NCBI RefSeq assembly: GCF_000025325.1
Contig: NC_013743.1
Coordinates: 3,410,001-3,474,000, forward strand
DNA from: Haloterrigena turkmenica DSM 5511
GTDB taxonomy: Archaea; Halobacteriota; Halobacteria; Halobacteriales; Natrialbaceae
DNA: 64,000 nt
Direction of reading: 5' to 3'
Positions within the stretch are counted from its first letter, which is position 1, and each line of letters begins with the position of its first letter. The notes below the pieces were generated by a model. That model was given only the letters and a program-made list of their open reading frames with translations, was not told where the DNA came from and made no database searches. A program made the translations under genes and the position numbers. Shown one piece after another: positions 31,018-61,595 of this stretch.

Positions 31018-33075
31018 TTACGTCGACCCTGACCGATCGTCGCGAACGTCGACGCCGCTGATCTCGAAGCGCGCGCCGCCATCGTCGCCGTTTCGCGCGG
31101 TCACGGCCCAGCCGTGGGCCTCGGCGATCCCCTCGACGATCGCCAGCCCGAACCCGGTGCCGTCCTCGGCGGTGGTGTAGCCGAACTCGAACAGTTCGTC
31201 GACGCTCGAGTCGAGCCCCGACCCGTCGTCGGCGACGTAGAACCCTCGTATCGGCCGATCGTCGCTGGCGTCGGCCTCGAGGGGACCGACGGTGACGGTG
31301 ACGGTGACGCCGGATCGATCCTGTTCAGTCGACGAGTCAGGGCTCGTGGGGCCGTGCTCCACGGTGTCGTCAGCGCGGTTCCCGCGCTGACTGCTTGTCG
31401 AGCCATGCTCGACACCGTCGTCGGCCTGCGGCCGACTGTCCGTGGAACCGTGTTGCACGCTGTTCTCCTGAGCTTGCGAAGGAGAGCCTGTCGAACCGTG
31501 TTCGACAGCGTTCCGAAACAGGTTCTCGAGCAGCGCCTGCAGGCGCCCCTCGTCGGCGACGATCGTGGTATCGACGTCGCACTCGAGGGTGGCGTCCGCG
31601 GTATCGACCGCGTTCCAGGCCCTGTGGACGCTTGTCGAGAGCGAGATCGGGGTCTGCTCGCCGATCGTTCGCCCGTGGCGAGCCAGCGACAGCAGCCGGT
31701 CGATCAGGTCGTCCATCCGCTGGAGCGACCAGCGGACTCGCTCGATCGACTCCCCCGACTGCGGACAGTCCTCGGCGTGGAGTTCGAGCGTGCCCCGCGC
31801 CACGTTCAGCGGGTTGCGCAGGTCGTGGCTGACGACGCTCGCGAACTCCTCCAAGCGGTCGTTCTGGCGCTCGAGCTCCCGCTGGGAGCGCCGTCGTCGG
31901 GTGATATCGCGGATCGCGTGTATCGTTCCGACGAACTCTCCGTCCTCGAGCGGGAGGAGCTCGGTGTGTACGTCGTGGATCCGCTCCTCACCGTCGGGCG
32001 ACTGGAACCGGACCTGATACTTGGCTCGAGTGCGGTCGACCGACGAAGAGAGGAGCGCTCTGACCTCGTCGGTGTACTTGCTGATCACCCGCTCGTCGTA
32101 GTAGCCCCGTTCGATGAGCTCCGGAAACGGGGTCCCGATCAGGGCGTCGATCTCCTCGGTGAACGCGTCGGCGAACTCGTCGTTACACCAGGTGATCGTC
32201 GCGTCCGCATCGAGGACGAACAGCGCGATCGGCGCGAGATCGACGATCCGCTCGTACCGGGCGAGTTCGCGTTCCCGACGTTTCCGCGCGGTGATGTCTC
32301 GAACGACGGCCGTAGAGCCGGCGAACCGACCGTCGTCGTCTGTGAGGGCGGTCACGTTCGCCTCGCCGACGCGCTCCGTGCCGTCCTCGGTTCCGATGGT
32401 GAATTCGAAGCGATCGGACGCCCGGTCGCTCTCGTGGAGGTGATACACCGTCTTGGCGCCGCGCTCGAGCGCCTCCCCGGAGATGAACTCGGCGATGGGT
32501 TCGCCGACGATGCGGTCTCGATCGACGCCGAGCAGGTCGCAGAACGCGTCGTTGATGATCGTGCACCGTCCGTCCGCGTCCAGGACGTACATGGGGTCGT
32601 CGACCGTTTCGACGAGCGTCCGATACCGCTCGAGTTCGCGTTCGCTCTCGCGTCTGGCTCGCTCCGCGCGGCGTTTCTCGACGGCGTTCTCGATGCGGTT
32701 CGCGAGGACGACGTACTGATCGGTCCCCGTCCCCTTCTGGAGATAGTCGGTGACGCCGGCCGAAATCGCCTCGCGCGCGATCGCTTCGGATCCCGTTCCG
32801 GTGAAGAGGAGAAACGGCATCTCCGGGTCGCGCTCGCGAACCGCCGCGAGGAACTCGAGGCCGTCCATTCCGGGCATCTCGTAGTCGCTGACGATACAAT
32901 CGATAGCGGGGCGCTCCGGCTCGCTCTCGGTCCCGTCCAGGCGCGAGAGCCCGTCTCGTCCGGAGTTCGCCGTCGACACGACGAACTCCGATCGGGATCG
33001 CTCGAGTGTGGCGGCAGTTACCGAACGAATGTCCGGGTCGTCGTCGACACACAGGACGTGGATCCCGGATGCCAT
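31018..33075 (-). CDS. Hybrid sensor histidine kinase (receiver-PAS-PAS-HisKA-HATPase)
   Basis: A 685-residue cytoplasmic kinase. Residues 1-125 are a receiver domain with phospho-acceptor D64 in VSDYEMPGMDG. Two PAS domains follow (about 150-265 and 275-390). HisKA has the phospho-histidine H417 in SHDLRNPLN. The HATPase domain begins with NLFRNAVEHGST (N box) and ends with DDGSGL and GFGLAIVEG (G boxes). Between N box and G1 box, residues ~523-575 are an insertion of four repeats of the type VEHGST..S plus Gln/Asp-rich spacers, encoded by tandem palindromes (31352-31508). The insertion lies in the ATP-lid-side loop, so activity may persist. The start is the ATG at 33075; the frame runs further upstream without homology. 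Confidence 0.9.
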   Translation of the reverse strand: MASGIHVLCVDDDPDIRSVTAATLERSRSEFVVSTANSGRDGLSRLDGTESEPERPAIDCIVSDYEMPGMDGLEFLAAVRERDPEMPFLLFTGTGSEAIAREAISAGVTDYLQKGTGTDQYVVLANRIENAVEKRRAERARRESERELERYRTLVETVDDPMYVLDADGRCTIINDAFCDLLGVDRDRIVGEPIAEFISGEALERGAKTVYHLHESDRASDRFEFTIGTEDGTERVGEANVTALTDDDGRFAGSTAVVRDITARKRRERELARYERIVDLAPIALFVLDADATITWCNDEFADAFTEEIDALIGTPFPELIERGYYDERVISKYTDEVRALLSSSVDRTRAKYQVRFQSPDGEERIHDVHTELLPLEDGEFVGTIHAIRDITRRRRSQRELERQNDRLEEFASVVSHDLRNPLNVARGTLELHAEDCPQSGESIERVRWSLQRMDDLIDRLLSLARHGRTIGEQTPISLSTSVHRAWNAVDTADATLECDVDTTIVADEGRLQALLENLFRNAVEHGSTGSPSQAQENSVQHGSTDSRPQADDGVEHGSTSSQRGNRADDTVEHGPTSPDSSTEQDRSGVTVTVTVGPLEADASDDRPIRGFYVADDGSGLDSSVDELFEFGYTTAEDGTGFGLAIVEGIAEAHGWAVTARNGDDGGARFEISGVDVRDDRSGST
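31352..31508. repeat. In-frame array of 3-nt-loop palindromes in the histidine kinase gene
   Basis: Palindromes with exactly 3-nt loops: 31352-31364 (5-bp arms, loop ctc), 31369-31391 (10-bp, ttc), 31396-31414 (8-bp, cat), 31420-31436 (7-bp, tgc), 31442-31458 (7-bp with one mismatch, cgt) and 31488-31508 (9-bp, cgt). A looser dyad lies at 31463-31485. Hairpins of the gtcgaac-acg-gttcgac type, which encode VEHGST, alternate with others encoding the spacers. The protein repeat is thus a by-product of DNA hairpin multiplication. Confidence 0.8.
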
Positions 33076-59787: not shown

Positions 59788-59886
59788 ACCCGACTTTGGG
59801 ACCGGACGGCGTAAGGCGTTGCGATCCGACGGTGGCTCGAGAGAGATACCCATTCAGTGGCCGTGAATGGAGCCCGAAAAAGTGAG

Positions 59887-60359
59887 GGCTCCGTGAGCCG
59901 GGGGAGGGCAGGCCGTCACACTGTTATTCACCGCGAGCGAGTGAAACGAGCGAGCGGGCCGACGACCGATGTGAGCGACTGTAAGGAGCGAACGGAGGGA
60001 GGTGTGTCTTCGTGAGCGGAGCGAGCGAAGGCTCGGAAGTCGCAGCCCGCGAACGGAGTGAGCGGGAACGTCTTCCGTTGCTTTTCATCAAAGCTGAGCG
60101 GGATCGAAGATCCCGCGAGGTCGTCGGCGCGAAGCGCCGACTGCAAGCGATTCCGAAGGAATCGCCCAGTCCAAAAGAGTGCGTAGCACTCTTTTGAGGA
60201 TTTTCCCGAGGGCGCGGCTTTGCCGCGTCCGTGGTTCGAAAGACGCCTTCGGCGTCTTTCGTCATCAAGCGAGACCTCCGGTCTCGCGGACCTCGCGAAT
60301 CGAAGATTCGCTCAGTCACGAGAGAGCTTCGCTCTCTCGAACGACAGAGCAAAGCTCTG
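59887..60359. repeat. Hairpin array behind pan (E3)
   Basis: A 470-bp non-coding block abutting the pan stop. Between 60098 and 60359 it contains ten palindromes in a row, nine perfect and one with a single G-T pair, each with a 3-nt loop: 60098-60116, 60123-60141, 60147-60165, 60172-60196, 60210-60230, 60237-60261, 60269-60287, 60295-60311, 60319-60339 and 60345-60359, with arms of 6-11 bp and different sequences. To the left lie a dyad with an 11-nt loop gaacggagtga (60046-60066), a segment accgcgagcg...gagcgagcgg (59930-59957) like the left block of E1/E2, and ggctc-cgt-gagcc (59887-59899). No gene is encoded. Confidence 0.85.
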
Positions 60360-60362
60360 CTT

Positions 60363-61595
60363 TTATTGATAGAAGTAGCCGGGCGACGAAATCACGTCGC
60401 TCGAGTCGTCTTCCTCGATCTTCTCGAGGGCCTCTACGAAGTCCTGGTGGGTGACCTCGTTGCGGTCGTTGCGGATGGCGAACATGCCGGCCTCGGTGGA
60501 GAGGCTCTCGATTTCGGCGCCGGAGTAGCCCTCGGTGTCGTCTGCGAGGGCGGCGAAGTCGACGTCGTCGGCGACGTTCATGCCGCGGGTGTGGATCTCG
60601 AGGATCTGCTCGCGGCCGTCGCGGTCGGGTTCGGGCACCTCGATGAGGCGGTCGAATCGGCCGGGGCGCAAAATTGCGCGGTCGAGCATGTCGAAGCGGT
60701 TAGTCGCGGCGATGATGCGGATCTCGCCGCGGGCCTCGAAGCCGTCCATCTCGGAGAGGAGTTGCATCATGGTCCGCTGGACCTCGGCGTCGCCGGAGGT
60801 CTTGGACTCGGAGCGGCGGGTCGCGATGGCGTCGATCTCGTCGATGAAGATGATGGCGGGCTCGCGCTCGCGGGCCATCTCGAAGAGGTCACGGACGAGC
60901 CGCGAGCCTTCCCCGATGAACTTGCGGACGAGTTCGGAGCCGGCCATCTTGATGAAGGTGGCGTCGGTCTCGTTGGCGACCGCTTTGGCGAGCATCGTCT
61001 TGCCCGTCCCCGGCGGGCCGTAGAGCAGGACGCCGCTCGGCGGTTCGATGCCGACCTCGGTGAACAGCTCGGGTTCGGCCAGCGGCTGTTCGACGGCCTC
61101 GCGGACCTCCCGGACCTGCTCGTCGATGCCGCCGATGTCGGCGTAGGTGACTTCGGGCCGTTCGGTGATCTCCATCGACTGGGCCCGCGCGTCGGTCTCG
61201 GCGTTTAACACCGTCTGAATCGCGAAGGAGTCGTTGACGGCGACGCGGTCGCCGGGCTCGATCTGCTCGACGATCCGCGGCGAGACGTCGGTCAGTACCT
61301 CCTGGTTGTTCCCGTGCTGTTTGACGATGACCTCCTCGTTCTCGAGGACGTCCTCGACGGTGGCGATGTACAGCGAGGAGCTCTTGAGCGTCTCGTTTTC
61401 GCGCTCGATGCGGTCGACGCGCTCGCGGAGTTGCTCCCGGCGCTCGTCGGCGTCATCGAGCTGTTCGGAAAGCTGTTCGTTGACGTCCACGAGGTCCTGA
61501 TAGTGATCGCGGAGCGCCTCGAGCCGCTCGTCGTCGGGGAGATCCGGATCGATATCGCGGTGAGGTCGGTCGGGGATAGACGGGCTTCGAGACAT
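60363..61595 (-). CDS. pan: Proteasome-activating nucleotidase PAN
   Basis: A 410-residue AAA ATPase that unfolds proteins and feeds them into the 20S proteasome. An N-terminal coiled coil (~30-75, LVDVNEQLSEQLDDADERRE) precedes an OB domain. Walker A is GPPGTGKT (193-200), Walker B IIFIDEIDAIATRR, and the second region of homology RGEIRIIAATNRFDMLDRAI. The C-terminus GYFYQ fits the HbYX motif (hydrophobic-Tyr-any) that opens the proteasome gate. Haloarchaea usually have two PAN paralogues; which one this is cannot be told here. Directly after the stop begins the hairpin array, so the 3' UTR is exceptionally structured. Confidence 0.95.
   Translation of the reverse strand: MSRSPSIPDRPHRDIDPDLPDDERLEALRDHYQDLVDVNEQLSEQLDDADERREQLRERVDRIERENETLKSSSLYIATVEDVLENEEVIVKQHGNNQEVLTDVSPRIVEQIEPGDRVAVNDSFAIQTVLNAETDARAQSMEITERPEVTYADIGGIDEQVREVREAVEQPLAEPELFTEVGIEPPSGVLLYGPPGTGKTMLAKAVANETDATFIKMAGSELVRKFIGEGSRLVRDLFEMAREREPAIIFIDEIDAIATRRSESKTSGDAEVQRTMMQLLSEMDGFEARGEIRIIAATNRFDMLDRAILRPGRFDRLIEVPEPDRDGREQILEIHTRGMNVADDVDFAALADDTEGYSGAEIESLSTEAGMFAIRNDRNEVTHQDFVEALEKIEEDDSSDVISSPGYFYQ

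Follow-up and report, generated by a model that had tools for sequence, protein, structure and literature searches.

Ten three-nucleotide-loop hairpins follow the pan gene

The window analysed here is a stretch of 64,000 nucleotides from the genome of Haloterrigena turkmenica DSM 5511 (5,440,782 bp in 7 contigs). Close to its end, the minus strand carries an open reading frame (60363..61595) for pan, the proteasome-activating nucleotidase of the Pan2 type (NCBIfam NF047747, 760.7 bits, exceeding the cut-off), and the stop codon of this gene is the anchor of a hairpin element at 60098-60359. A first-pass annotation of the window had described ten non-overlapping hairpins in these 262 bp, with arms of 6-11 bp and a loop of 3 nt in every case, and all ten are indeed present, perfect or near-perfect. 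Its statement that the array touches the pan stop codon needs correction: pan is read from the minus strand, its stop lies at 60365-60363, and the array starts 3 nt past it. The single G-T pair of the array (60212/60228) exists as such on the plus strand only, and in the pan mRNA the same position is an A-C mismatch.

In 3000 dinucleotide shuffles of the 262 bp, similar arrays never arose. The highest number of hairpins in any shuffle was 2, and the mean number of non-overlapping hairpins with 3-nt loops and arms of at least 6 bp was 0.13, compared with 10 observed; a chance origin is thus ruled out. The RNA fold of the array has a z-score of -10.4. The arms within the array are unrelated and only the loop length is common to them, which bears out the earlier remark that this is not a simple repeat expansion and also excludes a tandem or CRISPR-like repeat. 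No Rfam match reached the gathering score in the 64-kb window, and sub-threshold matches to mir-555 and tfoR were dismissed as implausible. Phage records gave no match, and a phage origin was therefore discarded.

The pan copy of the element extends from approximately 59869 to 60362, past the coordinates first given to it, as similarity to other copies runs on to about 59891. All its parts are given here in the sense of pan, on the minus strand. Nearest to the gene is the hairpin CAGAGC-TTT-GCTCTG (60345..60359), followed by the modules h1 (CGAGAGAGC-GAA-GCTCTCTCG, 60319..60339), h2 (GCGAATC-TTC-GATTCGC, 60295..60311), h3 (GCGAGACC-GGA-GGTCTCGC, 60269..60287) and h4 (CGAAAGACGCC-GAA-GGCGTCTTTCG, 60237..60261). 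The core hairpin, of R1 type (GGACGCGGC-AAA-GCCGCGCCC, 60210..60230), bears the sole mismatch of the array, the A-C of the mRNA, and has an orthologue in 5/5 congeners. Further modules are CAAAAGAGTGC-TAC-GCACTCTTTTG (60172..60196), GCGATTCC-TTC-GGAATCGC (60147..60165), GTCGGCGC-TTC-GCGCCGAC (60123..60141), whose loop is inverted in the congener G005, and GCGGGATC-TTC-GATCCCGC (60098..60116). The distal half of the element (59869..60097), known from a consensus of 44 copies, comprises GATGAAAAGC.., GTCGTCGGCCCGCTCGC.., CTGCCCTCCCCCGG.. and a closing stem, and is retained behind pan in congeners. Inside the closing stem of the pan copy, GGAGCCC/GGGCTCC (59869-59892), lies a T5 tract in sense (TCACTTTTTC), and this structure could be a terminator. 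At loci L309-L353, a conserved distal stem was seen 100-200 nt 3' of the core, between CCTGCCCTYCCCCG and CTCCCGGCC; this stem is variable, apparently covarying, and its loop resembles TCGCnnTGCTC.

A dispersed modular element of which the array is one copy

A search with the array recovered a second, near-full copy in the host genome (94%, G000:C1:964145-964421) and partial copies in 6/6 members of the genus, with long copies and many matches among them. Among all copies found of this dispersed, modular and palindromic element, the pan array is the longest. In aligned copies the linkers TGACTGA, GAGGTCC, TTGATGAC, GAACCAC and CTCGGCAAAA are constant and the hairpins between them vary. The order h1-h4 with its linkers TGACTGA / GAGGTCC / TTGATGAC / GAACCAC is kept across genera, and the same order was found on plasmids of Natronorubrum bangense, Natrinema sp. 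SYSU A 869 and Natronosalvus amylolyticus. Thus, the idea that the chain of hairpins is a feature of pan proved wrong. What lies there is a single copy of an element that is dispersed behind many housekeeping genes, and since the same array and core are found behind many unrelated genes, a pan-specific regulatory structure is ruled out.

Short palindromes in many extragenic copies, arranged as mosaic units with conserved linkers, are features that the element shares with bacterial REP/BIME sequences (BIME, bacterial interspersed mosaic elements), which likewise cluster at gene 3' ends, often near stop codons. The element differs from them in being archaeal, in the unrelated arm sequences of its modules with a uniform 3-nt loop, in the inversion of loops and covariation of arms between species, and in the host genome lacking an intact gene for a cognate Y1 (RAYT-type) transposase. 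Apparently, it is a repeat so far undescribed, which follows closely on the stop codons of many haloarchaeal genes; no earlier description was found in the literature searched, which included few subscription papers, so its novelty is provisional.

A second dispersed hairpin family was also noticed, with ACGGGYGC, TGCGGGACC and GGAAGACGC modules and an end reading ATCGGCTGGGGAGG... It occurs at G000:C1:3012259-3012470 (locus L111) and at C1:3020353, 3151571, 3356036 and 3362450, and a piece with two hairpins, about 61 bp long, is cleanly present or absent between congeners.

Most core copies lie at a fixed distance past stop codons

In its simplest form the core reads CNAN-c-TTTTGC-kctgc-[arm]-NNN-[arm']-tcg-GCAAAA-c-NTNG-ATGAAAAGC, so that TTTTGC..GCAAAA provides a T4 tract on each strand. 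Its conserved unpaired positions are strand-specific: the KCTGC/TCG internal loop, a C-C mismatch and the ATGAAAAGC tail. The core model R1 found 18-30 copies per genome of the genus, and it matched 109/121 genomes of the family and 46/296 of the phylum, all haloarchaeal and of the same order among the matches listed.

Among the 66 family copies with a callable upstream neighbour, the TTTT of the core lies 5-10 nt past a stop codon, in sense, in 50, and another 10 lie 44-60 nt upstream of the start of an antisense gene. The former address holds in 13/16 copies from other haloarchaeal families. Genes were called by a simple caller based on codon usage, so individual neighbour assignments may be off. 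The antisense-facing copies (about 15%; L279, L280, L298, L300, L313, L334, L347, L353) are often placed exactly 45 nt from the start, just outside the probable promoter. Genes followed by the element include pan, the DNA polymerase II large subunit (DP2), gyrB, the thermosome, a ribosomal protein of L16 type, EngB and a member of the geranylgeranyl reductase family. Several of these genes are followed by it in two or more species or genera, at orthologous positions; for pan, DP2, gyrB, EngB and the L16-type gene it was found in more than one species and for some in more than one genus. Behind pan the element is absent in other family members, including other genera, hence its presence is patchy. 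Most hits of a genome-wide GTDB scan with pan were remote AAA ATPases, and little use was made of it.

The T4 tracts raise the question of a bidirectional terminator or insulator, which would stop transcripts of the upstream gene and keep antisense transcription from reading through. A tract on both strands, and a core placed either past stop codons or a short way upstream of promoters, would suit such a device, and in Haloferax volcanii transcription is terminated by T tracts and by one tested hairpin (PMC7237163). Hairpin-cluster and U-tract terminators (PMC8355165, PMC7237163) resemble the element in combining hairpins and T tracts just 3' of stops, whereas in the element the T tract precedes the core hairpin and the stems are modular and evolve concertedly. 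With the tract ahead of the hairpin in sense, termination there would leave the hairpin out of the RNA. Moreover, the leading T4 tract has been lost in the pan copy, and a chain of ten hairpins is unnecessary for termination. We therefore regard this explanation as rather unlikely.

The patchy distribution can also be read as that of a selfish or passively mobilised repeat of REP, MITE or PATE type, spread by a transposase and surviving mainly at gene ends, where insertion is harmless. Core copy number varies from 1 to 30 per genome, some copies are on large plasmids, and orthologous intergenic regions differ in having or lacking the element, e.g., behind pan in other genera. The closest haloarchaeal precedent is given by PATEs and IS605-type termini (Dyall-Smith et al. 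2011, PMC3119063), which are also transposase-free, multicopy and palindrome-containing; however, the palindromes of PATEs lie near their termini and are akin to IS605 ends, whereas those of the element are internal modules. No intact Y1 (RAYT/TnpA) transposase was found in the host genome G000, only a 38-aa Y1_Tnp fragment containing a stop, and in the 464 kb sampled neither of the two TnpB genes is bordered by a 3-nt-loop hairpin; a palindrome with a TTCA loop was seen instead at the end of one. An identity with IS200/IS605/PATE was rejected on these grounds. A third TnpB gene (locus L361) has an h1-like hairpin with TGATGAC/GAACCA linkers on its 3' side (G000:C1:2414850-2414874), and this hairpin may connect the modules with ends of IS605 type; hence the exclusion is not fully closed. 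The fixed distance of 5-10 nt from the stop, together with retention across genera at orthologous genes, exceeds mere tolerance. On balance, passive spread is conceivable, and we lean against it.

The 3-nt loop is a genus-wide property

A census of hairpins covered about 2.37 Mb of DNA of five congeners, about 421 kb of it intergenic. Perfect intergenic hairpins with arms of at least 8 bp numbered 118 for loops of 3 nt, compared with 13-39 for each other loop length from 0 to 15; in coding DNA of the same genomes the excess of 3-nt loops was small. When the arm pair GCGGGACC..GGTCCCGC was searched with any gap of 0-12 nt, nearly all gaps were of 3 nt and the loop letters varied. The 3-nt loop is thus a property of the whole genus. 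In the window itself, four 3-nt-loop hairpins occur in 140 bp (31369-31508) within overlapping long ORFs, a possible cluster in coding sequence.

A C-G pair closes 126 of the 178 intergenic 3-nt-loop hairpins with arms of at least 7 bp, and C(GNA)G together with its complement C(TNC)G makes up about half of the intergenic 3-nt loops, compared with an expectation of about 16%. GNA triloops are known to form DNA mini-hairpins of unusual stability (Hirao 1994, Yoshizawa 1997, cited in PMC6479982). GNA and TNC loops were equally frequent in the sense strand (49 and 42, P=0.53). The density of intergenic 3-nt-loop hairpins was 0.08 per kb between divergent genes and 0.34-0.46 per kb between tandem or convergent ones (P=3e-8).

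Arms change in pairs and loops are inverted

The intergenic region 3' of pan was compared in six congeners, with G005 used only locally, as it is not syntenic beyond the neighbourhood of pan. Between flanks that are nearly identical, whole modules are found in some species and missing from others, and the core hairpin is rewritten as GGGCGCGGC, GGGTGCGCC or GTGCGGTCGC within constant sequence. Hairpins are gained, lost and remodelled in relatives, and the test that could have refuted the first-pass annotation, a lack of hairpin conservation or turnover there, came out in its favour. In the core alignment A1, pairing holds in 99.7% of cells; 49 changes are two-sided and none is one-sided, and modules h1-h3 have 27 and 1, respectively. 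Over 67 copies, the 1144 pair cells comprise 1121 Watson-Crick pairs, 1 G-U, 3 A-C and 19 other mismatches. The arms covary almost only via paired Watson-Crick changes. With loops free to change in orthologous and paralogous hairpins, it is structure rather than sequence that is conserved across species, as had been suggested for the array.

Loops were tallied at orthologous sites with identical arms, after pairs had been collapsed to sites and one non-orthologous pair dropped (n=18, species pairs mixed). The changed loop is the exact reverse complement in 9/18 sites and another sequence in 9/18, while random draws from the family loop pool would give inversion in 14.6% (P=4e-4).

The hairpin next to pan offers a view of how a module may arise. 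Its position reads CGAAGTTTTGCTCTGTCGTTCGAGAG in sister copies, and it was apparently formed anew from the conserved start sequence of the element (..TTTTGCTCTG). CAGAGC-TTT-GCTCTG matches CGAAGTTTTGCTCTG in a sister copy, a half-hairpin precursor. Read from these alignments, one arm would have been pre-existing and its complement replaced the other side.

Perfect stems could also be the product of compensatory evolution, if the element were a 3'-UTR structure selected for pairing in RNA, with a putative role in protecting mRNA 3' ends, stalling ribosomes past the stop or serving as a protein scaffold. The sense placement 5-10 nt past stops, the strong RNA fold of the array (z = -10.4), the conserved unpaired positions of the core and the depletion of 3-nt-loop hairpins between divergent genes all speak for it, and a precedent exists in E. 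coli, where REPs at most 15 nt from the stop were reported to stall ribosomes (PMC12306157). Against it, there is one G-U among 1144 cells, and in hairpins with a single mismatch G-T is not in excess over A-C in the sense strand (8 vs 13). As RNA loops GNA and TNC are not alike, yet both occur equally often in sense; selection on RNA offers no reason for loops to invert between orthologues; and about 15% of core copies are reversed, upstream of an antisense start. Since G-U pairs are nearly absent and the loops are strand-symmetric, we find no support for RNA-level selection on individual hairpins. The explanation as a whole deserves serious attention, at somewhat less than an even chance.

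Template switching as a proposed engine of hairpin turnover

From their appearance, it would be copying errors during DNA replication that keep the hairpins perfect and flip their loops. Arms are perfect, one-sided changes in them are rare, and spacers are inverted between relatives more often than chance predicts. Polymerase template switching between short inverted repeats is reported to leave arm homogenisation and short-spacer inversion as its signature (PMC8604942, PMC8794818); in yeast genes it inverts 3-nt palindrome spacers (GAA<->TTC, TCC->GGA; PMC8604942), and hairpins can arise in one such event (PMC8794818). As both marks of this published signature are found here, we infer a DNA-level process with template switching as its engine. 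Of the ideas offered by the first-pass annotation, footprints of a hairpin-inserting process fits best, in the form of arm homogenisation and loop inversion. Quasipalindrome mutations of this kind resemble the element in these two features and in one-step hairpin creation (PMC8604942, PMC8794818); they are scattered in coding and RNA genes, whereas those of the element are concentrated in a conserved dispersed repeat.

We propose that the nascent strand would switch template inside short palindromes during replication. A switch within the strand would copy one arm onto the other, so that stems stay perfect or new hairpins form around a 3-nt turn, and a switch between strands would invert the 3-nt loop. 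Modules would be shuffled through exchange between dispersed copies. The anchored core hairpin would be kept for a role at the gene end, most likely a putative structured mRNA 3' end or a boundary of transcription or translation; this is the weakest step of the proposal. Part of the arm changes is explained equally well by conversion between paralogues, because swapping of paralogous modules also gives sudden paired changes; for the arms, template switching is therefore not separately proven, and only the loop flips exceed the paralogue-pool null. The conserved unpaired positions and the strict sense orientation suggest selection on a transcribed or protein-bound form beyond template switching alone.

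Taken together, the pan array is probably an expanded copy of a haloarchaeal REP/BIME-like dispersed palindromic mosaic, anchored at stop codons in sense and shaped by template switching. More tentatively, undescribed elements of this kind, found throughout haloarchaea 5-10 nt past the stops of housekeeping genes, might act at the end of translation or transcription, with hairpins rebuilt by template switching around GNA turns. With such continual rebuilding, cis-elements would owe their conservation not to selection alone, but also to a mutational mechanism.

The element is a clear archaeal counterpart of the bacterial REP/BIME mosaics, with an address that is unusually regular, 5-10 nt past the stop codon, in several haloarchaeal families. 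Its loop flips, half-hairpin precursor and paired arm changes make these dispersed palindromes a natural data set on the origin of hairpins, which bears on whether perfect hairpins are built by template switching or by stepwise compensatory substitution. Lying so close to stop codons, the element may have a role in archaeal termination or at mRNA 3' ends.
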